The position numbers were made by a program, and so were the translations under genes. The notes beneath the pieces are model-generated. The model made no database searches. It worked only from the letters and a program-made list of their open reading frames with translations, and was not told the DNA's origin. A DNA stretch of 48,673 nucleotides from the NCBI GenBank assembly GCA_001940825.1, contig MSGT01000016.1:1-48673 (forward strand), read 5' to 3'. Below are positions 4,199 through 46,087 of this stretch, piece by piece (the stretch's first letter is position 1; the number at the start of each line of letters is the position of its first letter). The DNA comes from Sphaerochaeta sp. Phil3 (GTDB lineage Bacteria; Spirochaetota; Spirochaetia; Sphaerochaetales; Sphaerochaetaceae).

Positions 4199-5947
4199 TT
4201 AGAGCTGAGCCTTGTCTGCAACCATCTTGTTGATTTCGTCTATGAAGGCCTGAATTTCAAGACCATTGACCTGCTTTCCACCGCGGTAGCGGACGGAGAC
4301 CAGGTTTCCTGCCTCTTCCTTCTCGCCAACGATCACCGTGTATGGAATCTTCATGTTGGCGGCAAGCCTTATCTTGTTGTTCATCCTTTCGTCGGAAAGG
4401 TCTGCACTGGCTCTAAGGCCTGCTTCCTTGAAGGTCTTTTCAAGCTTCTTTGCATAGTCGAAGAACCTGTCACCAACCGGAACGATCCTGATCTGCTCAG
4501 GAGCAAGCCATGGTGGGAAAGCCCCGGCATAGTGCTCCAGGAGGACTCCAAAGAAACGCTCTATGGAACCAAGGAGGGCTCTGTGGATCATGTAAGGCCT
4601 CTTCTCGACGCCGTCCTTGTCAACGAACGTGAGTTTGAAACGCTCTGGCAGATTGAAGTCGAACTGAACCGTCGAAAGCTGCCACTCCCTTCCAATTGCG
4701 TCCTTTATCTTGAGGTCGATCTTTGGACCATAGAAGGCTCCGCCGCCTTCGTCTATGTCGTATGAAAGGCCTTCCTTCTCAACAGCCTTCTTGAGGGCTG
4801 CGGTTGCAGCCTCCCACTTCTCAGGTTCTCCAACGGATTTCTCCGGCTTTGTTGAGATGTATGCGTGGATGTCCTGGAACCCGAACGAATGGAGCATGTA
4901 GAGGGAGAACCTAAGGACCTCGATTATCTCCTCGTCCATCTGGTCTGGTGTGACGAAGAGATGCGCATCGTCCTGAGTGAACCCACGCACACGCATAAGT
5001 CCATGGAGGGCTCCTGCCTTCTCGTATCTATAGACGGTTCCAAGCTCTGCCCAGCGGCAAGGAAGGTCTCTGTAGCTCTTCTTGCTGTTCTGATAGATCA
5101 TGATGTGGAACGGGCAGTTCATTGGCTTTGCATAGTAGTCGGCCTTGTCCATCTCCATTGGAGGGTACATGCTGTCCTTGTAGAAACCAAGGTGTCCGGA
5201 CGTCTCCCACAGCCAGCTCTTTCCAACGTGTGGGGTGTAGACCATCTCGTAGCCGTTCTTGTAGTGCTCTTCGCGCCAGAAGTTCTCGATGAGCTGCCTT
5301 ACGCGTGCTCCCCTTGGATGCCAGTAGACAAGACCCGGACCGGCCTCCTCGTGGAGGCTGAACAGATCGAGCTCCTTTCCAAGCCTTCTGTGGTCGCGCT
5401 TCTCCACGTCCTCCAGGTACTGAAGGTATGCCCTCAGGTCCTTTGGATTGGTGAAGGCGGTTCCGTAGATCCTTGTGAGCATCTGGTTGTGCTCGTCTCC
5501 ACGCCAGTATGCGCCGGCAATGTTGAGGAGCTTGAAGGAATCCGCCCTAAGCTCCTTTGTGGATGCAACGTGCGGGCCTCTGCAAAGGTCTGTGAAGTTG
5601 CCCTGGTTGTAGACTGTGACGGTCTCGCCTTCAGGGATGGCTTCGAGAAGCTCAAGCTTGAACTTCTGGTCCTTGAACATCTCGGCGGCCTGTGCGCGGG
5701 TGACCTCTATGCGCTTGAACTCCTTGTTCTGCGCAATGATGTCCTTCATCTTCTGTGTTATAGTGTCCAGGTCCTCAGGCGTGAGGTTCCTTGGAAGTTC
5801 GAAATCATAGTAGAAACCATTTTCTATGGCAGGCCCTATCGCTATCTGGGCGGTAGGAAACATCTCAAGCACAGCCTCTGCCATGACATGGGCCATGGAG
5901 TGTCTTATCATCTTGAGCTTTTCATCCTGATAGATTTTTTCCGTCAT
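4199..5947 (-). CDS. thrS: Threonyl-tRNA synthetase lacking the TGS domain
   Basis: A 582-residue class II synthetase that charges tRNA-Thr. The N-terminus goes straight into the editing (SAD) domain with HSMAHVMAEAV, the first editing motif. The usual 60-residue N-terminal TGS domain is absent, as I recall for some spirochaete enzymes. The catalytic core shows YYAKPMNCPFHI with the zinc Cys, the motif 2 region CRWAELGTVYRYE, and motif 3 around GSIERFF. The anticodon-binding domain starts near PPWLAPEQIRI. The start is the ATG at 5947 with AAGGAG seven bases upstream; a TTG two codons earlier sits too close to that site. An inverted repeat (5968-6001) lies just upstream. Confidence 0.96.
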   Translation of the reverse strand: MTEKIYQDEKLKMIRHSMAHVMAEAVLEMFPTAQIAIGPAIENGFYYDFELPRNLTPEDLDTITQKMKDIIAQNKEFKRIEVTRAQAAEMFKDQKFKLELLEAIPEGETVTVYNQGNFTDLCRGPHVASTKELRADSFKLLNIAGAYWRGDEHNQMLTRIYGTAFTNPKDLRAYLQYLEDVEKRDHRRLGKELDLFSLHEEAGPGLVYWHPRGARVRQLIENFWREEHYKNGYEMVYTPHVGKSWLWETSGHLGFYKDSMYPPMEMDKADYYAKPMNCPFHIMIYQNSKKSYRDLPCRWAELGTVYRYEKAGALHGLMRVRGFTQDDAHLFVTPDQMDEEIIEVLRFSLYMLHSFGFQDIHAYISTKPEKSVGEPEKWEAATAALKKAVEKEGLSYDIDEGGGAFYGPKIDLKIKDAIGREWQLSTVQFDFNLPERFKLTFVDKDGVEKRPYMIHRALLGSIERFFGVLLEHYAGAFPPWLAPEQIRIVPVGDRFFDYAKKLEKTFKEAGLRASADLSDERMNNKIRLAANMKIPYTVIVGEKEEAGNLVSVRYRGGKQVNGLEIQAFIDEINKMVADKAQL

Positions 5948-5967
5948 TTGCAATCTCCTTATACAAA

Positions 5968-32407: not shown

Positions 32408-35101
32408 TCAAAGGCTTATCACAAGGCGGTTTGCACCGTTTTCATACTCGTAGCCGCCGTCTTTCATAGCGGCCTTTACAAGGCAAAGGGATATCTCATC
32501 GCCGTTTTCCAAAGGATTGTATTCCTCTCCATTCCACTTGAAACGCATCTCAAGTACATCCTTCTCACCATCGTACTCGACGGCAAGCTCCAAAGGGAAA
32601 GGAGAACGACAGTTTGGGAGTATGTTGACGGCGACAAGCTCTTCGAAAAGAAGTCGCAGGTTGCGGGTCCTCTTGGCACCAAGCATGTTCTTCTCGCCAA
32701 AAGACTGAAGCTTTTCGTTCATTGCAATGAAATCGTAGTCCTTGGACTCCACAAGCAAGGAAAGCACCTTGAGACGTTTGACGAACGCCCTCGTCCTGCC
32801 CTTTTCAGGATGGTCGAATATCTGCTGAGGCGTTCCGTCTTCGTATATGACACCCTCGTCCATGTAGAAGATGCGGGTGGAGACGTCACGGGCGAACTTC
32901 ATCTCATGGGTGACGATCATCATCGTCATCCCCTCTTTTGCAAGCTCCTTCATGACGGACAGGACCTCACCTACCATGGTAGGGTCAAGTGCCGATGTAG
33001 GCTCATCGAAGAGGACTATCTCAGGATCCATCGCCAATGTACGGGCAATGGCTACACGTTGCTTCTGACCACCTGACAGCTCGTCAGGATAGGAAAGGGC
33101 CTTCTCAGCCATTCCAACCATCCTCAAGAGCCTCATGGCATTGCCGTATGCAGATTCCTTGCTTTCCTTCTTGAGGACCATTGGAGCCAACGTGACGTTC
33201 TCTATCACATTGAGGTGTCCAAAGAGATTGAAGCTTTGGAACACCATACCCATCCTGCGCCTTAGCATCCTAAGGTCCGTTTTCTTGTCTCCTGTGTCAT
33301 AGCCAAAGACCTTTATGGTTCCGCTCGTTGGTGTCTCAAGACGGTTTATGCATCGCATCAAGGTTGACTTACCGGTTCCTGAAGGACCAATGATCGTTAT
33401 GACCTCGCCCTTCCTTATCGTGGTGTTAACATCCCTAAGCGGCGTTATGTTTGGATATTCCTTCCTCAAATGCTCGACTTCAATGAGAACAGGATTCTCC
33501 TGCGTTGAAGACCCAACCTTTTCATGCTTGTTTTCATGTAGCTTCTCTTCCTTGAACTCCCCTTCAAGGAAGGCAACCCTTCTTCGCTTCTTTGGATTTA
33601 TTTTCACTTCAATTCGTCCTACAAGAGCACCAATCAAAGTGGAAAGGGCGAAATAGATGGCGGCTACGGCCAAAAGTGGGAAGAAAGCCTCGTATGTGCG
33701 GCTTCTTATGATGTCGCCGGCCTTGGTCAGATCCTGGATTGCAATGTAGCCAACGATGGATGTCAGCTTCATCATGCCAACGATCTCACCTTTGTAGAGT
33801 GGAAGGATGTGGGAAATGGCCTGAGGCATGATGATACGGCCAAAAACGGAGACCTTTCCAAAGCCAAGGGCTGTGGAAGCCTCCCACTGCCCCTTGTCAA
33901 CGGCATTGATCCCCGTCTGTAGAATGCCTGCAACGGACACGGAGAAGATGACGGAGAACGCAACTATGGCCACGGCTATGGGGGAGGCGTCCACGGAGCC
34001 AAAGACTATGAAGTAGACGATAAGCAGCACAACCAGTGCAGGGACCCCCGTCATAAGGGACGAAAAGGCCTTTGCAAAAGCACTCAGGCAACGGACCTTG
34101 TTTCTAAGAAGAAGCATCAGGAGGAATCCCAACACAGTGCCAAACACTGCAGAGCAAGCGGAAATGAGAAGGGTCACGCCCAAACCTTTGAGGATGAGCT
34201 TCCAGCGGCCTTCCTTCACAAAGGTCTTTTCAAAGCTCTCCCCCACCTTGTCAAGGAAGCTCCTTTCGTCCACAGCCCCATCACCAGATGCGTCAATGAG
34301 GTTCTCGCTGCGGCACACGAATACGTTTCCACCCTTGTAGTGCGCAACAGGGAAATCTACCTCCTTGGCACGTTCCTCCGTGATTGAAATGCAGCCGGAG
34401 GCGACATCGGCCTTGCCTGTCTGGACGAAGTTGATGATGGATGAGAACGTCGTGGTGGAGATATCGGCCCCCATGTCGAGCCTGTCTGCAATCATAAGAA
34501 GCAGTTCCACTTCATAGCCTGCGGCATTTCCGGTGGAGTCCATATAGCTCATGGGGTATACGCTTGGCTCATAGACGTACTTGAGCTTTCCATTGACCCG
34601 TTCGCCAATGTTGTATTGGGACCAATCGATATGCATCTTTCCTTCGTCGCCGGATAGCCACTTCTCCCTAAGCGCTGCAAGCGTGCCGTCCTGCGAGAAC
34701 CCCTCGATGATCGAAGAGAAGATGCTGGTCAGCGAATTTCCTTTCTTCAAGATGAAACCATAGCTGTCAGAGACTATCACTTCTGGGAATATTGCAAATT
34801 CCTTCCTTTGGCCTGTGACTACACGGGCTATTGGCTCGTCCACAATGGAGGCATCCACATCCCCTCTTTTGAGGGCCTCGAGGGCTCCGGCCTGGTCGTC
34901 GTAGTAATGCCAGGTGAGGCCATCCACGACATTGTCCACAGCTCGATCGACCACAGTGCCTGTAATGCAGGCTATGTCGTGTCCTGAAAAATCCTCCTTG
35001 GAAGAGAATACCAAAGAAGACCCGGCATGGTCGTTGCTGCAACCTACAAGAAAGACGACAAAGAGCACTGCAATCAGAATCAGACTTGCTATACGTTTCA
35101 T
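32408..35101 (-). CDS. One-chain amino-acid ABC importer: binding module, permease, ATPase and HATPase-like domain
   Basis: An 897-residue lipoprotein-type fusion. A signal peptide with Cys21 (FLVGC) is followed by a type-3 solute-binding module whose halves are in reversed order (residues 35-150 match the usual C-terminal half, 170-265 the N-terminal half). A HisM/GlnP-type permease follows (300-495), then a GlnQ-type ATPase: Walker [10 protein letters not shown] 572-580, LSGGQ 675-679, Walker B LFDE 697-700, His732. The last 117 residues resemble an RsbW-like HATPase_c_2 domain with an N-box-like FEELVAVN (819-826) and NGEEYNPLE (857-865), but the Asp of the DxG box is missing. It probably imports a polar amino acid, with regulation through the C-terminal domain. 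It follows the symporter gene by 12 bases. Confidence 0.88.
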
Positions 35102-35113
35102 ATTTTCTCTCTC

Positions 35114-36700
35114 CTAACCCCGTACAAGGGTCTCCTTATCAAGCATGTTCAATCCACCTGAGGCCATGACTGCTTCCACCTGCAGGCATGTGAGGTTGTT
35201 GGCCGTCATTATGAAGTCTATTATCGAGTTGATCGCCACAGCTATGGCCACCGCCTCCATTGGAATGGAAAGCTGCGTGAACATAACGGTGTAGCAAGTG
35301 AGCGCTCCGCCAGGGATAGGCGGCGCCGCCATGGACAAAAGGCTTGTCACTATGACCATGGTCACGATCCAAGCCGGAGTGATTGAAACGCCGTAGTTCT
35401 CCGCCATGCAAAGGCAGACGGCGGTAAAGCCAATGAGAGCTCCTGGCTTGAATATCACCTGTCCCAGAGGGACGGCGAAATGGGAGATCGTCTCAGGTAT
35501 CCCCAGCCTCTTCTCGCACGTCTCCATATTTGTGGCGAATGCAGCCGCAGATGAAGCGGTCGTGACGCCTATGAGGAATGTAGGAAGTAGCTTTCTTACG
35601 AGCATTCCAAAACCAACCTTATATCTTACAGAGAGCACGGCTATGAAGACGAGGCTCAGCACTGGACAAAGGACGAAGGTGATTGCCAGGGCCTTGAATA
35701 TCCCAACTATTTCAGATCCAAAGTCCGATCCCATAAGGGAGAACAGGGAGAAGAATACGAATACTGGGATAAGGGAGCTTATGGCTTCCATGAGAAGGCT
35801 CACGACTTCGTTCATCTGTTCTATGATGGCACGGGTAGCAGATACCCTGTCTCCTAGAACCAACAGAGCGAATCCAACCGCAGCGCCAAGGAAGATTATC
35901 TGAAGGGTGTTACCCTCAAGGAAGGGAGAGACTATGTTGCTTGGAACTATGTCAAGGACGATTTGGTATATCTCAGAGAACCCTGAAAGGGACGTACCGT
36001 CAATTGAAAACTCCAAGGGGAAGAACCACACAATGAAAGCCGTCGCTATGGCATCTACTAAGAATGTCAGGATTACAAAACGGGAGATTACCCTTTTGCC
36101 AATCCTTCCCATGGCAGACATGTCCCCAACGTTGAAGATCCCCCAGCAGATGGCAAGGAATATCATAGGAGACGAAATGGAGCACAGCAGGTTCAGAATC
36201 AGGCTGAAAAGCGGGTCGGTCACAGCCCTGATGGTGCTTTGGACCCCATTTGGAAGAAGCCTTTGGAGAAGACCCAGCCCAACGGCAAGCACGATTGCGA
36301 CCACAAGCCTTTGCATCTGTCCTGTCTTGCGTTTCTTCCTAATGTATACGCAAAGGGTGTTCTCTCCGTTGCTGTAGCCTTTGTTCAGACTAAGGCCTGC
36401 CTGCGCCAACAGCTTGTTCGAAAGCGCGTAGTCCTCCAGATCCTCCCCTGGAGAAATCTCATGGCCTCTTACACGGACCTCTGCATAGTCCTTCCCTAGC
36501 CTTCTTCTTGCAACATACGTGACAGGGGCATCTGGAATGGAGCCAAGCCATCCTTCGAGGATCTCCTCGAGGGACAGCCTAAGCCTTATGCAGTCCTTCT
36601 TGTCTACACCGGCCTCCTTCAACGTTTGTGAGAACTCCTTGGAAACGTCGTCTATCGCTTCCAAGGAAAGCTTGTACTCCTTTCTTTTCGCTTCAATCAT
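35114..36700 (-). CDS. Dicarboxylate/amino-acid:cation symporter with N-terminal HATPase-like domain
   Basis: A 528-residue protein. Residues 1-122 form a cytoplasmic domain resembling HATPase_c_2 anti-sigma kinases (LSLEEILEGW at the N-box position, then RVRGHEISPGEDLED at the G1 position) but lacking the N-box Asn and the G1 Asp. From about residue 131 it is a DAACS (GltP/SdcS) symporter: TTASSAAAFATN is the SSxxAT hairpin, and later come AAPPIPGGA and the sodium/substrate segment around NSIIDFIMTANN. It likely takes up glutamate, aspartate or a C4-dicarboxylate. It lies 14 bases after the phosphatase gene in one operon. Confidence 0.88.
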   Translation of the reverse strand: MIEAKRKEYKLSLEAIDDVSKEFSQTLKEAGVDKKDCIRLRLSLEEILEGWLGSIPDAPVTYVARRRLGKDYAEVRVRGHEISPGEDLEDYALSNKLLAQAGLSLNKGYSNGENTLCVYIRKKRKTGQMQRLVVAIVLAVGLGLLQRLLPNGVQSTIRAVTDPLFSLILNLLCSISSPMIFLAICWGIFNVGDMSAMGRIGKRVISRFVILTFLVDAIATAFIVWFFPLEFSIDGTSLSGFSEIYQIVLDIVPSNIVSPFLEGNTLQIIFLGAAVGFALLVLGDRVSATRAIIEQMNEVVSLLMEAISSLIPVFVFFSLFSLMGSDFGSEIVGIFKALAITFVLCPVLSLVFIAVLSVRYKVGFGMLVRKLLPTFLIGVTTASSAAAFATNMETCEKRLGIPETISHFAVPLGQVIFKPGALIGFTAVCLCMAENYGVSITPAWIVTMVIVTSLLSMAAPPIPGGALTCYTVMFTQLSIPMEAVAIAVAINSIIDFIMTANNLTCLQVEAVMASGGLNMLDKETLVRG

Positions 36701-36714
36701 CCGTTTTCCAAACC

Positions 36715-39525
36715 TCAGTCGAAGCTCTTTCTCAAAGAGAGCCTGTTGTAGCCGTCCATGTACTCGTATGTGACCTGATCCATGGTCTTCTTCACCATGA
36801 AGATTCCAAGGCCCCCAATCTCGCGCTCTTCCGCTGAAAGGGTTATGTCAGGGTCCTTCGTCTCCAACGGGTTGTACGGCCGTCCATTGTCCATGAATAC
36901 AAGCTGTACAGTGCTGTTCAATACGGAACATTCGACCTTGGCGGTAGTGGCTCCGCTATACAGCCTTATGTTGGAGTAGATTTCATCCACGGCAATGCTC
37001 ATCTTCCTAATGGTCTTCACTGGAACATCGCTTGCTTCCAACCTCTCTTCCACAAAGCCAAGGAGGGTCTCCATGTTCTCTTCCTTTGGATCGAGGGAGA
37101 TGCAGTCCTTCTCCATCAGGAGAAGGGAGAGCATGGTCATGTCATCGAACTGAGGGGCTTCGCCCACAAACTCGTCCACGTCCTTCTTCACCGCACGGCA
37201 TATCTCTTTGGCATTCATCCCAACAAGACCGTTCAGACACTTTTCAAGACGTTCGTCCCCATAGAGCTCGTTCCTACTGTTGGTGGCCTCAGTCACCCCG
37301 TCCGTATACAGGAAGATTTCATCGCCAGGCATAAGGGAAAGCTCTCCCAAACGGTACTTCATACCCTCCATGCCGGCAAGGACGAATCCCGGCCTCGTCT
37401 TGAAGAACTCGAACCTACCGTCCTTGTGTCTGACAAGAGGCGGATTGTGGCCTGCATTTGCAAACGTCACTATGTTCGTCCTGAAATCCAGAATCCCCAT
37501 CCAACAGGTCACGAACATCTCGGCTTCGTTGTTCTCGCATAGATCCCTATTCGCTCTAGTGAGGATGAGGGCCACATCGCTTTCGTTGTCCGCATGGCTC
37601 TTTATGATGGTCTTGGCCTTCATCATGAACATTGCAGCGGAGATCCCCTTTCCGGAGACATCGGCTATAAGGAAAGCAAGTCTATTGTCATCAAGAAGAT
37701 AGAAGTCATAGAAGTCCCCTCCAACTTCCTTGGCGGTGTCCATGGTGGCGAATATGTCAAAGTCGGTCCTGTCTGGGAAGGCGGGGAATACGGACGGGAG
37801 CGTGGACAGCTGTATGGTCCTTGCGAATTCAAGCTCCTTGTCTATTCTGGCCGCCGCCTCCTTGATGTAGCCCTTGAGGGTCTGGACGGTCGAATTGATG
37901 TCGTCTGAAAGCGAGACGAACTCCTTGTTGGTACGCACGTCCACGGATACGTTAAGGTTTCCACCTGTTATCTCCTCCAACGAGGAGTTTATCTTCTGGA
38001 TGTTCTCTACGACCAGTTTCTTGACGAGGAAGTAGATCAACAGGAAAAGGAAGGCGAACACCATGATCATTATGAACACCGTGGTGTACAAGGACATATC
38101 ACGACCGAACACGACTTCTCTCATGGGCATCACGCCTATGATGTAATAGCCTTCCGTAACGCCGTACATCACAAGGGAATCCTCACCATAGACAACCTCC
38201 CTTGTGAGCTGCCATTCGCCTCCTACCTCAGTCTTGAGACCTGTAGTCGCATACAGGCTCTCTCCTTCGTGGTCGTTCGGGTCGCTTACAAGGTTGAAGT
38301 TGTTGTTGGCTATGAGCATGAATCCGTCCTCGCCTACATGCCTGTTTCTCGTAAGCCCTTCGACCCTTTCGTCTATATCCCTTTGGAAGCGCTGTGAATT
38401 GTACCCAACCTGCACGAAACCACCCTGCGACAGGGTGACTGCGGCGTATTTCATGGCAACACCGGCTTTATGGGATACTGTCTGATATCGCTGGACAAGC
38501 TCATTCGTGCCATCCAGAAGGACAAGGAACTCCTTGGACTGTTCACCGCTTGCCATATCGAATCCATAGTAGATGAGCGTCGTACTCTCTACGATTATGC
38601 CGTTCTCGTCTATGATGCTTATTTCAGAGACGTCGTATTTCTTAAGAAGCTCCACAAGAGCCGCCCTGTTGAGGCTTCCAAGGTCCTCAACCTCCTCCCT
38701 TATTGCCCTTGTAAGGGCAAGGAGGTTCTCGTCGGAAGCATCGTTGATGTCGTCTCTGACATCCTCTATGTAGAGGGTGAGCATGCTCTCGGCATCGCTG
38801 TAGGCAAGCCTCGTCTCAAGCCCATAGATGAAGAGGAAAGAGACGACGAACGCTAAAACGACACAGCAAAGAAGCCAGCGGGAGAACGCCTCTGCAAGCC
38901 TAAGCCTGTCCTTTCTCCTTTCATTGTGCCTGAAATCCCCAGAGAGGATCGAGACTGCAAGCATTGAAAGCAGAACGGCAAGACCATTGATTGCAATCAT
39001 TGGAAGCGCCGCACTCTCCACGAGAAGGAAAGACTCCCTTACGTTCTGCATGTTCGTAAGGAACACAAGTAGCATGTTCACCACTTCCAGGACAAAGGCA
39101 ATGGCCGTACCGTAGAACAAAGAAGGCCTCTTGTCGTCGAACATCCATTTCCTTAGGGCCGCACCAACCATACCGGCAAGGATGGTGGTAAGGCTTGCTC
39201 CAAGGGAAGTATATGTATCCCCCTTCAGGAACCTTCCAACTCCTCCAATGAAACCGGCGACAAGACCGGACGGAGCTCCAAAGACCAAGCCGGCTGTCAA
39301 CACACAGGCATCCCTTGCGCTTACAAGAGCTCCTCCAAGGGGCACGCTAAGTTTTGTTGAGGCTACGGCGGCCCACCCAAAGACGAGACCAAAGATGATT
39401 TTCTTGACGATCTTCCCTTTGCCTGCGAAGAACGACGACCTACTGCACCATTTGTTGCACCAATACAGAAGACAGGTGACAACGGAAGGAAGCAAAGTCA
39501 GGAGGATAAGTTGTACATATACCAT
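36715..39525 (-). CDS. Membrane SpoIIE-type phosphatase with 5TMR, dCache-like, HAMP and HATPase domains
   Basis: A 936-residue sensor. The N-terminus has several helices resembling the 5TMR-LYT sensor (SARDACVLTAGLVFGAPSG). A helix near residue 230, an extracytoplasmic dCache-like domain (about 255-490), a second helix and a HAMP linker follow. The PP2C/SpoIIE domain (about 590-790) has EVGGDFYDF, IADVSGKG, LYTDGVTEA and FDDMTML, so all metal-binding Asps are present. The last 130 residues are a canonical HATPase_c_2 domain with VDEIYSN, DNGRPYNPL and GGLGIFMVK. It could both dephosphorylate and phosphorylate the STAS partner encoded 40 bases upstream. No sigma factor lies nearby. Confidence 0.9.
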   Translation of the reverse strand: MVYVQLILLTLLPSVVTCLLYWCNKWCSRSSFFAGKGKIVKKIIFGLVFGWAAVASTKLSVPLGGALVSARDACVLTAGLVFGAPSGLVAGFIGGVGRFLKGDTYTSLGASLTTILAGMVGAALRKWMFDDKRPSLFYGTAIAFVLEVVNMLLVFLTNMQNVRESFLLVESAALPMIAINGLAVLLSMLAVSILSGDFRHNERRKDRLRLAEAFSRWLLCCVVLAFVVSFLFIYGLETRLAYSDAESMLTLYIEDVRDDINDASDENLLALTRAIREEVEDLGSLNRAALVELLKKYDVSEISIIDENGIIVESTTLIYYGFDMASGEQSKEFLVLLDGTNELVQRYQTVSHKAGVAMKYAAVTLSQGGFVQVGYNSQRFQRDIDERVEGLTRNRHVGEDGFMLIANNNFNLVSDPNDHEGESLYATTGLKTEVGGEWQLTREVVYGEDSLVMYGVTEGYYIIGVMPMREVVFGRDMSLYTTVFIMIMVFAFLFLLIYFLVKKLVVENIQKINSSLEEITGGNLNVSVDVRTNKEFVSLSDDINSTVQTLKGYIKEAAARIDKELEFARTIQLSTLPSVFPAFPDRTDFDIFATMDTAKEVGGDFYDFYLLDDNRLAFLIADVSGKGISAAMFMMKAKTIIKSHADNESDVALILTRANRDLCENNEAEMFVTCWMGILDFRTNIVTFANAGHNPPLVRHKDGRFEFFKTRPGFVLAGMEGMKYRLGELSLMPGDEIFLYTDGVTEATNSRNELYGDERLEKCLNGLVGMNAKEICRAVKKDVDEFVGEAPQFDDMTMLSLLLMEKDCISLDPKEENMETLLGFVEERLEASDVPVKTIRKMSIAVDEIYSNIRLYSGATTAKVECSVLNSTVQLVFMDNGRPYNPLETKDPDITLSAEEREIGGLGIFMVKKTMDQVTYEYMDGYNRLSLRKSFD

Positions 39526-39565
39526 GGCAGTCTCTTTTCCTAAGCTTCTTAAGTCTTCCTAGAGC

Positions 39566-39862
39566 CTATTCGATCGTCAGGATATCCACGAAGCCCGTGA
39601 CCTCAAAGACCTCCATGACGGTTTCGTTCACATTCCTTATCGTCATGGAACCCTGCTTGTTCATGATCTTCTGCATTGCAAGCAGAACCCTAAGTCCTGC
39701 CGATGAGATGTATTCAAGCTTCTCGAAATCGAACACGAGACTCTTCATTCCATCTATACTGGAGCGGACGTTCTCCTCCAGCTGAGGGGCGGTGGTTGTG
39801 TCCAGTCTACCCTCTACAGCTACAAGCAGTTCGTTTCCATTCAGCGTCTTTTTGATTTCCAT
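39566..39862 (-). CDS. STAS-domain anti-sigma-factor-antagonist-like protein
   Basis: A 98-residue single STAS domain of the SpoIIAA/RsbV type. The conserved phosphorylation loop is LEYISSAGLRVLL, with Ser54 at the position of the phosphoserine. The N-terminus VEGRLDTTTAPQLEE is typical. GGAGAGG lies eight bases before the ATG. It precedes the SpoIIE/HATPase gene, its likely phosphatase and kinase, and has a promoter-like element upstream. Because no sigma factor is present, its binding targets may be the HATPase-like domains fused to the neighbouring transporters. Confidence 0.92.
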   Translation of the reverse strand: MEIKKTLNGNELLVAVEGRLDTTTAPQLEENVRSSIDGMKSLVFDFEKLEYISSAGLRVLLAMQKIMNKQGSMTIRNVNETVMEVFEVTGFVDILTIE

Positions 39863-40070
39863 AATATCGACCTCTCCTTATCAGGTGTTTTCCAGAGGAA
39901 CTTTCAAAACTATGCTTTGTGTGGATTGGACATGGATTGCCGAGATGGAGGCCGTCTGAAGCAACTGAGATAATACTTTGTGTATTATGAAGTTGCCAAA
40001 GGCGGTATTCCAGCCGTGCAGGGCATGGCCAGGACACATGAAGGAGCTTTGAAAGTTGCCCTCCAATCAA
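39863..40070 (-). promoter_or_regulatory. Probable promoter region of the STAS/phosphatase/transporter operon
   Basis: This 208-base gap contains on the minus strand TTGGCA, 18 bases, then TATTAT. The -10 lies in a perfect 7-bp hairpin (ATAATAC/GTATTAT, loop ACAAA, about 39969-39987). An inverted pair AACTTTCAAA / TTTGAAAGTT lies about 150 bases apart (near 39899 and 40048). The gap is the clearest transcriptional break within the block. Confidence 0.45.
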
Positions 40071-41189
40071 TCATTTTCCAAGAGCCGCGGAAAGCCAAGG
40101 AGTCGAAGGCATCCAGCTCTTGTCCATATAGGCAGCATCCACGACATCTCCAAGGTTGTCTATCGAGACCCCTTCCTTTGGCATGACTTCATTCTGCCTT
40201 ACTATCACGGATGGAATCTCCATCCACATTCCAGGGCTCTCGTAATAGCACGAAGCAGCCTTGATGGAATCATAGTCTCCAGCTATTTCCAGCGCAAGGA
40301 CCCTTAGAGCGAACTCTCCGTTGAGGCTCCAGTTGGTGGTGGCGCAGGCTTTCCAGTTGAGTCCTTCCTGCATACTCAGAATATCTATGTTCGAAATATC
40401 GACCGAAACAAGAGGAATGCTGCTCCCGCACTCCTTCAAAACCTGATAGACGCCTTGTGCGTAGGCATCGTAGCAGCACCAGATTGCATCTATTTCACCA
40501 TCTTCGTACTTGCAGAGAACGTCCTTCGCCACTTCCTTGATGGATTCGACAGCATCCAAATGGTCGCTTGGAGCTATCGTTTCGACGGTTCTGATTCTTC
40601 CTACGGTCTCGTACAGTTTATACCCAACCTCTCTGCGGTCGAATGCCGCAATATACCCCTCTTCCTGGACCTTGAGGATGTTCACCCTCTCCTTGTTTGC
40701 AGTCTTCTCCGGATACATCGAAAGAATCTCTTCGACAAGCACAGCTGCAAGTCCAGAGTCCCTCTGGAAGAACTGGACGACGCCATCGATCGTCCTCGCA
40801 TTGCCTTCGTCATCCTTGAAGAATGTATCGAATGTCGCAATCTTGAAGTTTGGATATCTTTCGATTATGTCAGACAAGAAGGACCATGCGTAGGTCTCTC
40901 CTCCATGGGATACGACCACCCCGTCGTAGCCTTCCTGTGCACACAGCTCAATCCTGCTGCGCCATTCTTCGTCGCTGTCGTTGCAGAAGAACGTGTCTGC
41001 GGACATGCCAAGCTTTTGTGCGGACTGCTCAAAGGAATCGGCCCAAAGCTCGAAGATCGGGGAAGGGGCCATGTACATGATGTATGCGACCTTCTTCCCC
41101 TGCGTAGGGTTCTTCAAGGAGACGCAGCTTGTGAAAGACACAGCTACAAGCAGTGCAGCCAAAACCAAAGCAACGGTTCTTTTCTTCAT
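40071..41189 (-). CDS. Periplasmic sugar-type binding lipoprotein (Peripla_BP_4/RbsB-like), orphan
   Basis: A 372-residue lipoprotein (lipobox FTSC, Cys22) with a type-1 periplasmic binding fold: KKVAYIMYMAPSPIFELW opens the first lobe, GYDGVVVSHGG and DAIWCCYDAYAQGV are typical segments, and PLVSVDIS lies in the second lobe. This family normally binds sugars or autoinducer-2-like ligands, yet the adjacent permease and ATPase belong to the amino-acid type, so no matching transporter is present. It may instead present a ligand to the membrane sensors of this locus. It follows the type-3 binding protein gene by 14 bases. Confidence 0.83.
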   Translation of the reverse strand: MKKRTVALVLAALLVAVSFTSCVSLKNPTQGKKVAYIMYMAPSPIFELWADSFEQSAQKLGMSADTFFCNDSDEEWRSRIELCAQEGYDGVVVSHGGETYAWSFLSDIIERYPNFKIATFDTFFKDDEGNARTIDGVVQFFQRDSGLAAVLVEEILSMYPEKTANKERVNILKVQEEGYIAAFDRREVGYKLYETVGRIRTVETIAPSDHLDAVESIKEVAKDVLCKYEDGEIDAIWCCYDAYAQGVYQVLKECGSSIPLVSVDISNIDILSMQEGLNWKACATTNWSLNGEFALRVLALEIAGDYDSIKAASCYYESPGMWMEIPSVIVRQNEVMPKEGVSIDNLGDVVDAAYMDKSWMPSTPWLSAALGK

Positions 41190-41203
41190 CTTCCAATCCC
41201 TGC

Positions 41204-42019
41204 CTATTTGTCCATGTTCTCCATGGCTTCCTGGATCCTCTTCATGTCGAAGGACTTCGTGACATACGATATCCCATCCTTGTAGTATGAGGAGGTGACA
41301 AGCAGCTCTTCGCGCTGAGAAGTATAGCCTTCCACGTTTCCATACCAGAAGATCACATCAATCCTCTTGCTCGTAAGGGCGACGAGGCGCACCTCCGCAT
41401 CGACCTGGACGAACGTGAACGAAACGCCCTGGGTCTTTGCTATCTCGTTCATCAATGCAACGTTGAAACCTGATGGATTGCCATCAGATGCAACATAGTC
41501 CATTGGAGGAAGGTCTCCCGTCACACCAACCACATAGGTTTTACCGGTCTTTGCAGTTTCGATGCCGTCATCGGAAACCGATATACTTGCGATGTATTCG
41601 TCCACAAGCTTCTCCAACGTTCCATTGTCCATTAGAGTTGTGATTCCCTGCTCAAGTATTCCAAAGAGCTCACCGTCATCCTTTCTTACAGCCATCCTTA
41701 TCTCCGTAGGAACCCCCTTTCCTCCAGGAGCGACGGTCAATGAGTCGTCCTGAGCCTTAAGGTAGTTGGCAACCGATGTTGGAACCAGCAGATACTCTAC
41801 GTTCCCTGCGTTCAGGTCCAGAATCATCGAGGTGAGGTTCGTGTACTGCTTCCACTCTCCAATGGCAGGATGAGGGAAGATTTCAAGATCGGACGGCTCC
41901 TGCCAATTCATGATTCCACATTCGATGTCGTTGGTCGTAGCCTTTTCACTGGAGGCACCGGCGAACGCCAGGGAAAGAGACATCAACAAAACCATAGCGA
42001 TTACAAAAGCTTTCTTCAT
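41204..42019 (-). CDS. Amino-acid binding protein (type 3), apparently circularly permuted
   Basis: A 271-residue exported protein; the signal peptide ends near AFAGASS. The first half of the mature protein (to about residue 150) matches the usual C-terminal part of Bac_3 proteins (VEYLLVPTSVANYL, then GILEQGITTLMDNGTLEKLVDEY). The second half matches the usual N-terminal part (GVTGDLPPMDYVASDGNPSGFNVALMNEIA, here split by position). This is the same reversed order as in the fusion protein at 32408-35101. It probably feeds the permease and ATPase encoded upstream. The ATG at 42019 has AGGAGAG six bases before it. Confidence 0.82.
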   Translation of the reverse strand: MKKAFVIAMVLLMSLSLAFAGASSEKATTNDIECGIMNWQEPSDLEIFPHPAIGEWKQYTNLTSMILDLNAGNVEYLLVPTSVANYLKAQDDSLTVAPGGKGVPTEIRMAVRKDDGELFGILEQGITTLMDNGTLEKLVDEYIASISVSDDGIETAKTGKTYVVGVTGDLPPMDYVASDGNPSGFNVALMNEIAKTQGVSFTFVQVDAEVRLVALTSKRIDVIFWYGNVEGYTSQREELLVTSSYYKDGISYVTKSFDMKRIQEAMENMDK

Positions 42020-42050
42020 TTCCAACTCTCCTATACCTTATGTATGTTTT

Positions 42051-43205
42051 CTATATTTCGATTTCAAAAAGGTTTTCACGGTTTCCAGCGTCATAGCGAT
42101 ACCCGATCCGCCTGGCGGTGTTCTTCAGAATCGTTATGCCTAGGTGGACCATATCGTCGCCACCGACTGAGACATCGGCCTTGCCATGAATCCCGTCTCC
42201 AAGCCCATCGCAGGCCTTTTCGAAAGGATTGTATTCCACCCCTTTGGAGGAGAGCCTAATCAGGGAGCTCTTCTCCTTTTCGTCGAACGAAAGCTCCAGG
42301 GACATATCCACGCAGTCGCTTTTGCCATAGTCGAGCATCTCATAGATGAGCTCTTCCGTGCAAAGCTGCAGTCTATACGCTTTCTTCTCGCCAATTCCGT
42401 ACTTTGAGGCAAAGTCCCTGATACTCCCCTGCAGCTGCATGAGATCGAACGAACGGGAGTCTATTTTGTACGAAAGGTACTTCATCTTATGTATGAAATC
42501 CCTTGTCTTCTTTCTTTTTGGGTTGTCGAATATCTCCTGTGGAGTGCCCTCTTCATAGATGCCTTTTTCATCCATGTAGAGGATTCTTGTCGCAATCTCG
42601 CGGGCGAATGACATCTCGTGCGTAACTATCACCATTGTCATGCCGCTTTTGGCAAGGAGCCTGAGCGTTGCAAGGACCTCGCCCACCATTGTTGGATCCA
42701 ACGCACTTGTAGGCTCGTCGAACAGCATGACCTCAGGTTCCATGATGAGTGAACGGACTATGGCAATACGCTGTTTCTGACCACCAGACAGTACATCAGG
42801 CATTGCATATTTCTTGCTTTCAAGGCCAACCATCCTAAGGAGCTTGAGGGCCTTCTCCTCTGCTTCAGCCCTCTTCATCTTCAACAACCTGATTGGAGCA
42901 AGGGTTATGTTGTCCAACACGCACAGGTGGGAGAACAGGTGAAAGCCCTGATAGACGAAGCCTACACGGCGTCTTATCCGGTTCAAATCCGCCTTTGGAG
43001 ACGTAAGCTCGTCGTCTCCAATGTAGATGGAGCCCTTGTCAGGAACCTCAAGCAAATCCATGGAACGCAGGAATACGCTCTTTCCACCGCCGGATTCACC
43101 AATTATGACGATCCTCTCACCCTTCTCCACAGTAAGGCTTACATCCTTGAGTACCTCCAAGGAACCAAAGGACTTGGAGATGTTCTCAACCCGAATCATG
43201 CTCAT
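42051..43205 (-). CDS. Amino-acid ABC transporter ATPase with C-terminal HATPase-like domain
   Basis: A 384-residue protein. Residues 1-240 are a GlnQ-type ATPase: Walker A GESGGGKS 36-43, LSGGQ 139-143, Walker B LFDE 161-164, His196. Residues 245-384 are an appended RsbW-like HATPase_c_2 domain with CTEELIYEML at the N-box position (282-291), SSKGVEYNPFE at the G1 position and HLGITILKN (354-362) at the G2 position. The N-box Asn and the G1 Asp are absent, so ATP binding by this domain is doubtful. The gene overlaps the permease gene by 20 bases. The extra domain is the same type as in the neighbouring symporter and one-chain importer. Confidence 0.9.
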   Translation of the reverse strand: MSMIRVENISKSFGSLEVLKDVSLTVEKGERIVIIGESGGGKSVFLRSMDLLEVPDKGSIYIGDDELTSPKADLNRIRRRVGFVYQGFHLFSHLCVLDNITLAPIRLLKMKRAEAEEKALKLLRMVGLESKKYAMPDVLSGGQKQRIAIVRSLIMEPEVMLFDEPTSALDPTMVGEVLATLRLLAKSGMTMVIVTHEMSFAREIATRILYMDEKGIYEEGTPQEIFDNPKRKKTRDFIHKMKYLSYKIDSRSFDLMQLQGSIRDFASKYGIGEKKAYRLQLCTEELIYEMLDYGKSDCVDMSLELSFDEKEKSSLIRLSSKGVEYNPFEKACDGLGDGIHGKADVSVGGDDMVHLGITILKNTARRIGYRYDAGNRENLFEIEI

Positions 43206-43914
43206 TGCCTGAGGCCTCCTTTTTCAAAGGTGTTTTCTTCAAGGGTTTCTCCTTCAAGGATGAAAGCCTATCGACCAAGGCAAAGATTCCGTAGCACAGG
43301 TAGGACAGTCCTAGATAAAGCAGAAGGCCTATGACGATCATGAACAGCGGCTCGATCGTGCGGCTTGAAATGTTGTTGATCACCCTTGTGAGGTCGGTTA
43401 TGGTGACATAGCCCACAACGCTGGTCCATTGGATCAAAGTGACTATCGTGGATTGGTACGTCCCTTTTGCAATGGCAGCAGCCTGCGGCAGCGTAACAAG
43501 GAAAAAAGCCTGATATTTGGAAAAGCCAAGAGTCCTTGCAGCCTCCACCTGGTTCTTGTCCGTCGCCTCGATGGCCGAATAGAAGCAGGCCGCCGAATAG
43601 GCGCTCATATGCAGTGAAAACGCCACTATGGCGACGAAAGTGGGAGAGACGTGGCTTGAAGCGAACACCACATAGTACATCAGCATGAGAAGAAGCAGAA
43701 CAGGACTTCCTCTGAGGATGGCAATGTACAGGGACGCGGCCTTTCTGACAGGCCAGATGCGGCTTCTTCGCATTGCACAGACGGCTATCCCAAGCAAAGA
43801 GCCAAGAATGACGGAAAAGACGGCAATCTGAACAGTCACACCCAAACCCCTTAGAAGGGTCTTGTAGGAGTCTCCGCTTATGAGAGTTTTATAGACAATC
43901 TCCTTGATCTTCAC
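43186..43914 (-). CDS. Amino-acid ABC transporter permease (HisM/GlnP type)
   Basis: About 242 residues with four to five helices and the EAA-like loop (VEAARTLGFSKYQAFFLVTLPQA). It belongs to the polar amino-acid uptake family. The start is uncertain: the ATG at 43923 directly abuts AGAGGG with no spacing, whereas a GTG at 43914 has that site nine bases upstream and is preferred here. It is the first gene after a 130-base gap that carries a LytTR-like direct repeat, so it is probably the first gene of a regulated operon. Confidence 0.88.
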   Translation of the reverse strand: MKIKEIVYKTLISGDSYKTLLRGLGVTVQIAVFSVILGSLLGIAVCAMRRSRIWPVRKAASLYIAILRGSPVLLLLMLMYYVVFASSHVSPTFVAIVAFSLHMSAYSAACFYSAIEATDKNQVEAARTLGFSKYQAFFLVTLPQAAAIAKGTYQSTIVTLIQWTSVVGYVTITDLTRVINNISSRTIEPLFMIVIGLLLYLGLSYLCYGIFALVDRLSSLKEKPLKKTPLKKEASGNEHDSG

Positions 43915-43973
43915 CTGAGTCATCCCTCTATGGGAGATACTACTCCAATCGCCGTTCTACAGTGCGGGACGAC

Positions 43974-44055: not shown

Positions 44056-45333
44056 CTATGGACTCAGGACCACGCAAACTGTGCAGATACCATCCTCAAC
44101 TTTGTATTCGACCTCACCATTGTATCTCTTGGAGGCTGTGATGACGCTGTCTATTCCAGTGCTTCTATTGATGGGGAGGCCGTTCTCCAACTTCAAGCCC
44201 GATGGCGCTGGGTTGCTCACGACGATCACAGTCTTCCCTCCAACACCCTTGACTGCAGCACGAATAGGCCCAGAGCTTTCCATGCCTTTTGCAGCATTGA
44301 GAGCGTTCTCCAAAAGGTTTGCAAGTATTGCAACGTAGTCCACATCCTTTATTCTGGAATAGAACGGGGTATCGGCCTGCGCAATGAACGAAACGCCTGC
44401 ATCCTTGGTCTTGTTCCTATAGGAGGAAAGTATCCCATTGACCATGACATGCGGGCAGAACGACGATGGACGCTCCTGTCTTTCCTCTTCCTCACCCAGA
44501 TATCTGAGGATGCCTTCCGTATCCCCCTCCCTGGCCATGGAGGCAATGCAGTCATAATGATGCCTGACATCATGCCTGATACGTCTAGTCTCCTTCTCCA
44601 TCTCCTTCACACCTTCTACATACGAGGTCAGGTATTCGACGTTCTGCTTCACAAGCTCATCCCTGGCTTCCTTCTTCATGTAGTAGATGTTGCTTATGTT
44701 CACGAGAGTCACAGCAACGAACGAAAGCGCAACGAAGACATAGAACAGCAGCACACCAACATCCTTCTCATTGGACCTCAACTTGACCATAAGCATGGAG
44801 AACATGATGAAGTAGAACAGCGATACGATGAACAGCCTCCTCCAGTTCTTGGAGTGGAATCCACTGACCTCCCTTATGAAGCTACGTCCATATCTCCTGT
44901 AGACCAATAGAATTGGAAGACAGAACGCTATTTGGATCAGGCTGCGCAGATAATATACGAGAACCACCGAACCTTCTATAGCTAAAAGATTGCTTAGAAT
45001 CGAAGAAAGGGACCAGAAGAAACAGAACACGCATCCGTATGACACCCAAAGATAGCACTTCTTCCAAAAACCATCGGCCGATGCATATATGAAGGTCCCC
45101 CAAAAGTACAGGAACGACCCCATGAACGAGGCTGTGAACCTAATGGACTTTGTCAAAAGGCTATGGCACAGGTAGACGACGGCAAAGAACACGATTCCGG
45201 CCACAATCCAAAGCAGAACCGTCTTCTTCTTCGAGAACCTCCTTTCCTCCAACGACAGGACAGCGACCAGATGAAGGGCGAAAAGGAAAAAGCAGACGAA
45301 GAAGGTAGTCACGGTATACTTCAGACCTAACAC
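44056..45333 (-). CDS. GHKL sensor histidine kinase with seven-helix sensor
   Basis: A 425-residue sensor of the AgrC/ComD-like class. About seven hydrophobic segments lie between residues 8 and 213, a linker follows, and the phosphoacceptor is His254 in RIRHDVRHH. The GHKL ATPase domain has its N box at ILANLLENALNAA (Asn339, Asn343). It starts with a GTG at 45333 that overlaps the response-regulator stop by seven bases, so the pair is coupled. Such sensors often detect peptides or small ligands at the membrane. Confidence 0.88.
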   Translation of the reverse strand: MLGLKYTVTTFFVCFFLFALHLVAVLSLEERRFSKKKTVLLWIVAGIVFFAVVYLCHSLLTKSIRFTASFMGSFLYFWGTFIYASADGFWKKCYLWVSYGCVFCFFWSLSSILSNLLAIEGSVVLVYYLRSLIQIAFCLPILLVYRRYGRSFIREVSGFHSKNWRRLFIVSLFYFIMFSMLMVKLRSNEKDVGVLLFYVFVALSFVAVTLVNISNIYYMKKEARDELVKQNVEYLTSYVEGVKEMEKETRRIRHDVRHHYDCIASMAREGDTEGILRYLGEEEERQERPSSFCPHVMVNGILSSYRNKTKDAGVSFIAQADTPFYSRIKDVDYVAILANLLENALNAAKGMESSGPIRAAVKGVGGKTVIVVSNPAPSGLKLENGLPINRSTGIDSVITASKRYNGEVEYKVEDGICTVCVVLSP

Positions 45334-46055
45334 GTTTCCCCGGCCTCCTTCAGATAATAGTCAACGTAGGCCCCCTTAAGAAATGTACGGAGCCTTCGAG
45401 GAATGGGAATGACCGATCCGTCATCCATTACCAAGCCCTGCGAAAGGCTGCGGACATGCGAAAGGTTCACGATGAACGAACCTCCGCACTTTACAAAACC
45501 CTTCTTGCCAAGCACAAGCTCCTCAACTTCCTTTACGGAGAGCCACGAAGTCAGTTTCTTTCCAGAGGACAAAGCAAAGACCTTCTTCTTGTCTATCGTC
45601 TCTATGTAGAGGATGTCCTCCAACGCTATGCGGTTGAGCCGCCCTTCCGATGAAAGCAGAATCCACGTCTTTCTTTCCCTAAGGGAGAGGACGCGGTCGA
45701 GCGCAGCGTCGAACTTCTCCTGGGTGTATGGTTTCTTTATGTAGTCTGAAACATGGAGGGAAAAGGCGTCCACTGCAAAATCAGAGCTCGTAGTCAAGAA
45801 TGTGATGTTGGTGTTTTCACTACGGGAAAGGATTTCATGCGCAAGCTCAGTCCCCAGCATCCCTGGCATGCATATGTCCAAAAGCGCGACATCGGGCGAC
45901 CCTGTCTTATCAAAGGACTCCAGCATGTCGAACCCAGAGGAATAGACCTCAATCTTCATCGCCCTCTGAGGGTGCTTGCTCGAGTAGACCAATAGATTGT
46001 CCTCAATGTCCTTACGCTCTACAGCATCGTCATCGCAAATGGCTATCCTAAACAT
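45327..46055 (-). CDS. LytTR family response regulator
   Basis: A 242-residue regulator: receiver domain with acidic residues Asp8-10 and phosphoacceptor Asp60 (VALLDICMPG), the conserved Lys in DYIKKPY, then a LytTR DNA-binding domain (about 140-242, with IEDILYIETIDKKKVF-like core and FVKCGGSFIVNLSHV). The ATG at 46055 is chosen because AAAGGA lies five bases upstream; an extension to 46079 is possible. It follows the alpha-galactosidase gene by 32 bases and precedes the kinase gene. The direct repeat at 43974-44005 is a likely target. Confidence 0.92.
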   Translation of the reverse strand: MFRIAICDDDAVERKDIEDNLLVYSSKHPQRAMKIEVYSSGFDMLESFDKTGSPDVALLDICMPGMLGTELAHEILSRSENTNITFLTTSSDFAVDAFSLHVSDYIKKPYTQEKFDAALDRVLSLRERKTWILLSSEGRLNRIALEDILYIETIDKKKVFALSSGKKLTSWLSVKEVEELVLGKKGFVKCGGSFIVNLSHVRSLSQGLVMDDGSVIPIPRRLRTFLKGAYVDYYLKEAGETC

Positions 46056-46087
46056 CTTTATCCTTTCCATCCAACGCATCTGCCGAG

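Follow-up and report, generated by a model that had tools for sequence, protein, structure and literature searches.

We analysed a minus-strand gene block on contig MSGT01000016.1 of Sphaerochaeta sp. Phil3 (GCA_001940825.1). The contig, 48,673 nucleotides long and here called the window, belongs to a genome of 2.36 Mb that is 96% complete (G000). The block encodes the parts of a partner switch, i.e. a membrane SpoIIE phosphatase with its own RsbW-type kinase domain and a STAS protein, together with three transport proteins, a DAACS symporter, a one-chain ABC importer and an ABC ATPase. Each of these transport proteins carries an extra domain with a predicted RsbW/SpoIIAB fold, and such domains have largely lost the residues for ATP binding. 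An earlier note on this DNA had proposed that the switch gates the transporters directly. The fold of the extra domains, the intact switch and the recurrence in other genomes of its association with transporter-borne domains speak for that proposal, while a role of the transporter domains as kinases does not survive. Among the explanations considered we favour a partner switch with the transporters as its readers, at about even odds.

Predicted fold of the transporter-borne domains

The extra residues are N-terminal in the symporter (about 125) and C-terminal in the one-chain ABC importer (about 125) and in the ABC ATPase (about 150). Pfam places HATPase_c_2 at the C-terminus of the ABC ATPase just under the curated cut-off (8.5e-5), and gives no match of their own for the symporter N-terminal domain and the C-terminal domain of the one-chain importer. 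Symporters with a similar N-terminal extension were found elsewhere in the genus and the family and in one further family, while the C-terminal domain of the ABC proteins has relatives in many more genomes. When compared with true HATPase_c_2 domains using hhalign, the symporter domain obtained a probability of 98.0% (E 2.5e-13) and the ABC C-terminal domain 97.4% (E 1.2e-11), where the E-values are those of single pairwise comparisons. The symporter and ABC domains match each other with a probability of 96.0%, and an unrelated control (STAS) obtained 0.1%.

The domains of the symporter and of the ABC ATPase were modelled with AlphaFold2 and compared by Foldseek, and the domain of the one-chain importer was assigned by profile and sequence comparison. 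The symporter-domain model (pLDDT 88, pTM 0.80) has 13 Foldseek matches in the PDB at E up to 0.001, all of them UsfX, SpoIIAB or RsbW. With VIA-align, ten anti-sigma kinase entries reach Z-scores of 10.2-11.5, and histidine kinases come next at no more than 8.3. For the ABC ATPase domain (pLDDT 78) all 16 significant PDB matches (16/16) are SpoIIAB, RsbW or UsfX.

According to these models, the fold is specifically that of anti-sigma kinases, beyond the generic GHKL fold. The earlier note had described an RsbW-like domain on all three transport proteins, in agreement with the profile-profile probabilities of 96-98% and with the significant Foldseek matches of the two modelled domains, which are all anti-sigma kinases. 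It had named a fold other than GHKL/HATPase as what would refute the idea, and both the profile and the structure comparisons uphold the fold.

Loss of ATP-binding residues

In a joint alignment, 69 HATPase domains that are either linked to SpoIIE or stand alone keep the N-box Glu (69/69), the N-box Asn (68/69), the G1 Asp (69/69) and the first G2 Gly (69/69). Of the 34 domains on symporters and ABC proteins, most still have the N-box Glu (30/34), but the N-box Asn is present in 8/34, and the G1 Asp and the first G2 Gly in none (0/34 each). Domains borne by MATE exporters, found in other genomes (see below), are intermediate, with the G1 Asp in 9/10 and the first G2 Gly in 0/10.

In the crystal structure of RsbV with RsbW, the N-box Glu of RsbW, Glu49, directly touches the substrate Ser56 of RsbV (PMC7340262). 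Since the Glu is mostly kept and the G1 Asp and G2 Gly are lost, the domains have given up the residues required for ATP binding and retained one on the STAS face. The transporter domains therefore look like pseudokinase docking domains. Judged from these residues they are not kinases and would at most be readers, if they are involved at all, and the kinase role would lie with the SpoIIE protein. The RsbW-like domains on the transporters thus stand as a fold, and their competence as kinases is contradicted by the degenerate motifs.

The switch core

According to Pfam, the SpoIIE protein consists of 5TM-5TMR_LYT, an extracytoplasmic sensor region, a HAMP-like linker, SpoIIE (6.9e-51) and HATPase_c_2 (5e-13). 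The metal-binding Asp residues of the phosphatase (D604, D622, D742 and D794/D795) are invariant across the aligned relatives, and the HATPase_c_2 domain has the N-box Glu/Asn, the G1 Asp/Gly and the G2 Gly all in place. In an alignment, Ser54 of the STAS protein falls on the phospho-Ser of RsbV/SpoIIAA. This column is Ser in 51 of 52 rows of standalone STAS proteins, the remaining row being a gap, and Asp21, Tyr51 and Ser54, the equivalents of RsbV contacts, are near-invariant in the same set (n=52). The block thus contains the set that characterises a partner switch of the RsbU/V/W type, a SpoIIE protein with intact Asp residues, a single-domain STAS protein with the Ser and an intact HATPase_c_2 domain. 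Judged from these motifs, the switch parts look complete and intact, and the kinase and phosphatase in one membrane protein look functional.

The genome has one STAS, one SpoIIE match and one HATPase_c_2 domain over the cut-off, all inside the block. Both claims of the earlier note about the core hold. The single STAS protein with a phosphorylatable Ser54 is recovered by Pfam, by TIGR00377 and by the alignment with the phospho-serine, and the genome has no other detected STAS. A sigma factor gene beside the switch is likewise absent; the genome has a primary-type sigma factor, a second RpoD-like one of 302 aa and four shorter ones, and none of these adjoins it.

Recurrence in other genomes

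The SpoIIE protein served as the query for relatives; the full alignment of the DAACS fusion is too little conserved for a profile search. We searched 80 SpoIIE neighbourhoods on six-frame translations. The relatives come from gut metagenome-assembled genomes labelled mostly as Clostridia, Lachnospiraceae, Oscillospiraceae and Bacilli, with a few labelled Bacteroidota or Actinomycetota, although such labels may be wrong. A STAS gene is present in 47 of the 80 neighbourhoods and a domain-bearing transporter in 12.

Loci L163 and L167 have STAS, SpoIIE/HATPase and DAACS genes in the same order as the window, and in L163 the identity to the window is 67% for SpoIIE and 75% for STAS. Locus L199 holds all five components, i.e. 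a periplasmic binding protein, a DAACS fusion (51%), a one-chain ABC fusion (52%), STAS (66%) and SpoIIE-HATPase (54%). Other clusters of the module are found in L192, L195, L204, L232 and L235. Relatives of the Peripla_BP_4-like protein of the block adjoin SpoIIE in L164 (64%) and sit in the L199 module (45%). All DAACS genes near SpoIIE in the 80 loci bear the domain (6/6), and plain DAACS genes were not found there. We also found MATE exporters with a C-terminal HATPase_c_2 domain above the Pfam cut-off, and MATE fusions adjoin SpoIIE in L171, L210, L221 and L225. MATE carriers, absent from the original observation, extend the domain to a third transporter fold. This recurrence, across lineages and with MATE, argues against a chance neighbourhood and makes it less likely.

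Among 120 related genomes, 10 of the 11 with a DAACS fusion also have SpoIIE. Within the same family SpoIIE is present in 9/10 genomes with the fusion vs 17/63 without it (Fisher p 0.0002, the related genomes not being independent). The survey of co-occurrence that had been suggested earlier thus came out in favour of a link for the DAACS fusions, whereas the ABC ATPase domains show no association.

STAS fused to an APH-like phosphotransferase adjoins SpoIIE in 15/80 loci (e.g. L173, L179, L181, L185, L242), and in L257 (6916-8487) STAS, APH and an intact HATPase_c_2 domain are found together in a single protein. Such STAS-APH fusions may be a further output of the same switch, or a further input to it. 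In L124 (9461-16409) SpoIIE, a stand-alone HATPase, a MATE fusion with a degenerate C-terminal domain and STAS lie beside a gene resembling non-ribosomal peptide synthetases. A VanZ/RDD membrane protein in L171 (4241-5734) has a C-terminus weakly like the symporter domain (phmmer 1e-3).

Layout of the block

The five minus-strand open reading frames described earlier were all found at their coordinates by an open reading frame check, Pfam and NCBIfam, and the domain searches that had been called for assign the SpoIIE, STAS, SDF and ABC families. The block reaches further, to position 43923, and adds a solute-binding protein, a second periplasmic binding protein and a permease, Table 1.

Table 1. 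Features of the block in the window, with the evidence for each.
Feature	Position	Strand	Evidence
Membrane SpoIIE (PP2C) phosphatase with intact RsbW-type kinase domain	36715..39525	-	Pfam, invariant catalytic Asp, intact kinase motifs
HATPase_c_2 domain of the SpoIIE protein (putative STAS serine kinase), residues 804-936	36718..37116	-	E 5e-13; N-box, G1, G2 residues
Stand-alone STAS protein	39566..39862	-	Pfam 2.8e-16; TIGR00377 above cut-off
Ser54 codon of STAS, predicted phospho-acceptor	39701..39703	-	Alignment with SpoIIAA/RsbV phospho-serine
DAACS (SDF) symporter with putative N-terminal RsbW-like pseudokinase domain	35114..36700	-	SDF 4.7e-57
Symporter N-terminal RsbW-like domain, residues 1-125	36326..36700	-	hhalign, AlphaFold2, Foldseek/VIA-align, motif loss
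One-chain ABC importer: SBP_bac_3, BPD_transp_1 permease, ABC_tran, C-terminal RsbW-like domain	32408..35101	-	Pfam; same architecture in L199, L192
C-terminal RsbW-like domain of the one-chain importer, about residues 770-897	32411..32794	-	28% match to ABC ATPase C-terminus, E 1.7e-7; profile comparison
Polar amino-acid type ABC ATPase with C-terminal RsbW-like domain	42051..43205	-	ABC_tran 1.4e-30, HATPase_c_2 8.5e-5
C-terminal RsbW-like domain of the ABC ATPase	42054..42503	-	AlphaFold2 and Foldseek PDB
ABC permease, partner of the ATPase, 20 bp overlap with the ATPase gene	43186..43923	-	BPD_transp_1 1.1e-15; TIGR01726 above cut-off
SBP_bac_3 solute-binding protein, likely partner of the ATPase and permease	41204..42025	-	6.3e-20
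Peripla_BP_4-like lipoprotein, possible co-sensor or sugar-binding protein	40071..41189	-	3e-8, just below cut-off

The STAS gene lies immediately upstream of the SpoIIE gene. The gaps between the STAS, SpoIIE, DAACS and one-chain ABC genes are 40, 14 and 12 bp, so the arrangement is consistent with one transcript for these four core genes. A scan for promoters and terminators across the block gave no excess over shuffled sequences. The symporter assignment is strong (PF00375, 194.2 bits vs a cut-off of 27.9). The ABC parts are of the polar amino-acid importer type, with SBP_bac_3, BPD_transp_1 and a GlnQ/HisP-like ATPase all found, and none of them reaches a substrate-specific equivalog cut-off in NCBIfam.

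In the one-chain importer (32408-35101) the binding protein, permease, ATPase and a fourth domain form a single polypeptide, and the one-chain layout is also found in L199 (1142 aa), there with two tandem binding-protein regions. Far from the switch, another contig of the genome (G000:C47:59176-61799, L120) encodes a second ABC ATPase with a C-terminal RsbW-like domain and a fusion of solute-binding protein and permease, a two-gene unit present in several genera. Just upstream of the block, at 44056-46079, are an AgrC-like histidine kinase and a LytTR response regulator; in L165 (6202-8353), genes for a kinase and a regulator with weak similarity to these are found close to STAS-SpoIIE.

Origin of the module

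In a quick tree with some long branches, the SpoIIE protein of the window groups with gut Bacillota sequences (L163-L165, SH-aLRT 98), and not with most of its own family. Relatives of the Peripla_BP_4-like protein were found in only 2/120 related genomes. From this grouping and this rarity, horizontal transfer of the module is likely. The contig itself appears native, and the block to lie in the Sphaerochaeta lineage. Mis-binning is contradicted by the even GC content and by ThrS (4202-5953), which is 70-86% identical to that of many genomes of the family. These are genomes of other genera; the identity of ThrS to genomes listed under the same genus is only 39-42%, either a replacement or an odd genus assignment.

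Comparison with known systems

For the proposed mechanism, the nearest functioning precedents are SypE/SypA, MlaB-MlaF and, in logic, inducer exclusion by EIIA-Glc. The core resembles RsbU/RsbV/RsbW and SpoIIE/SpoIIAA/SpoIIAB of Bacillus in its PP2C phosphatase, its STAS protein with the conserved Ser and its RsbW-type kinase, both in the folds and in the motif residues. In contrast to the Bacillus switches, no sigma factor is co-encoded, the kinase and phosphatase are in one membrane protein, and there are transporter-borne copies of the RsbW fold that lack the ATP-binding residues. In inducer exclusion by EIIA-Glc, one phospho-switched protein acts on several unrelated carriers. This likeness is in logic only; the phosphoprotein of the phosphotransferase system is not a STAS protein, and the two have no protein families in common.

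SypE of Vibrio fischeri also combines kinase and phosphatase domains in one protein that act on one STAS protein, SypA, with an output other than a sigma factor (PMC10120452), but SypE contains a receiver domain and lacks a membrane sensor, and no carriers with RsbW-like domains are described for this system. In MlaFEDB the STAS protein MlaB binds the ABC ATPase MlaF and is required for its stability and function (PMC7367683). MlaB is a subunit sitting on the nucleotide-binding domain, whereas in the window a dedicated RsbW-like docking domain is presumed, also on carriers that are not ABC transporters. That the system is MlaFEDB itself was ruled out, as the STAS protein scores 22.9 bits against the MlaB cut-off of 90 and the ABC parts belong with amino-acid importers. 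STAS is also tied to membrane transport in SulP/SLC26 (PMC8256260), but there STAS itself is fused to the carrier, while here the fused domain is its kinase-like partner.

Proposed mechanism and alternatives

If the transporters are the readers of the switch, an extracytoplasmic signal would be sensed by the 5TM and extracytoplasmic part of the SpoIIE protein, perhaps together with the adjacent periplasmic binding protein. The balance between its kinase and phosphatase would set the degree of phosphorylation of Ser54 in STAS. The RsbW-like domains are expected to sit at the ends of the carriers on the cytoplasmic side. Dephosphorylated STAS would dock on them, as STAS proteins dock on RsbW, and would there gate or stabilise the symporter and the ABC importers; phosphorylation of Ser54 would free STAS from the carriers. 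A wider claim would be a mobile, multi-phylum form of post-translational uptake control, in which one STAS phosphoprotein and a bifunctional membrane kinase/phosphatase gate the pseudokinase domains of DAACS, ABC and MATE carriers together. We put this forward tentatively, as something that falls somewhat short of an even chance.

Several observations weigh against the transporters being readers. RsbW-type proteins bind STAS in the nucleotide-bound state, and a domain without ATP-binding residues may bind it differently or not at all. A transporter fusion is found in only 12/80 SpoIIE neighbourhoods, and 68/80 are without one. Within the family, the DAACS fusion of most relatives is not next to the switch genes, and in one genome that is 96% complete (G028) neither STAS nor SpoIIE accompanies the DAACS-like fusion. 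Finally, ABC ATPases with a related C-terminal domain are found in 15 genomes without a detected STAS and in 16 without a SpoIIE match. A constant association between the ABC C-terminal domains and the switch is therefore not supported, and in such genomes the switch cannot explain why the domain is retained.

The extra domains could instead serve assembly or regulation within their own proteins, as modules of RsbW descent that are no longer tied to the STAS switch and whose location reflects shared history. The C-terminal domains of MetN and MalK offer a comparison, as modules for dimerisation or for sensing a cytosolic ligand. Besides the genomes without switch genes, this explanation draws on the second operon of the kind, which this genome has well away from the switch, and on the fact that several of the ABC domains share the motif EEICIN and make up a separate, conserved subtype, also present in that operon's contig (G000:C47) and among the domains that persist without STAS or SpoIIE. 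It does not sit well with the DAACS fusions, which accompany the switch in nearly all genomes that have them, with the adjacency in several lineages and with MATE carriers, or with domains that keep the STAS-contacting Glu and lose the ATP residues. We consider it unlikely.

Information could also flow the other way. The transporters would then be co-sensors, whose degenerate domains bind or release STAS according to the state of transport or the flux and so alter the amount of free STAS available to the kinase/phosphatase and to a further downstream target. Carriers of the DAACS type act as co-sensors in other systems, and in both DctA-DcuS and BceAB-BceS the transporter informs a signalling protein. 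The genes, the docking domains and their co-localisation would be the same as with transporters that are read out by STAS, and several carriers acting on one STAS protein would suit the integration of nutrient flux. However, no further downstream output was found beside the switch in the window, although an output in trans is possible. A flow of information from the carriers to the switch is, in our opinion, rather improbable.

RsbW and SpoIIAB are dimers formed through beta1/alpha1 (PMC7340262), and an intact HATPase domain is present in most clusters, so the degenerate domains might instead form RsbW-type heterodimers with the SpoIIE-borne kinase domain and sequester or activate the kinase at the carriers, without binding STAS. 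However, a kinase on a large membrane protein is awkwardly placed to reach several carriers, and the conserved Glu lies on the STAS face, not on the dimer face described for RsbW, which makes such heterodimers very unlikely. An ordinary gene neighbourhood, with an uptake locus beside an unrelated partner switch for an unlinked sigma factor or other target, fits the fluid neighbourhoods of gut metagenome-assembled genomes and the many SpoIIE relatives without a nearby fusion, but we give it hardly any credence, as the carrier domains are homologous to the kinase itself, co-localisation is repeated and the DAACS fusions are associated with SpoIIE.

Significance

All parts of the system are from known families and its core is a switch of a known kind; the new element is the pseudokinase-like domains borne by the transporters. 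To our knowledge, nearly all partner switches described so far control transcription. At the level of titles and abstracts, no description of RsbW-like domains fused to transporters was recognisable in the open-licence PMC literature, in line with the earlier note, whose author knew of no described system of this form. The transporter domains would be natural pseudokinase docking domains, useful for separating the recognition of STAS from ATP-dependent phosphorylation. If the transporters are the readers, the RsbW-like domains on the DAACS, ABC and MATE transporters of many uncultured gut bacteria would have a function. Uptake would be opened or closed directly, in a way that is new for bacteria, and phosphorylation would provide a fast way to coordinate several unrelated carriers.

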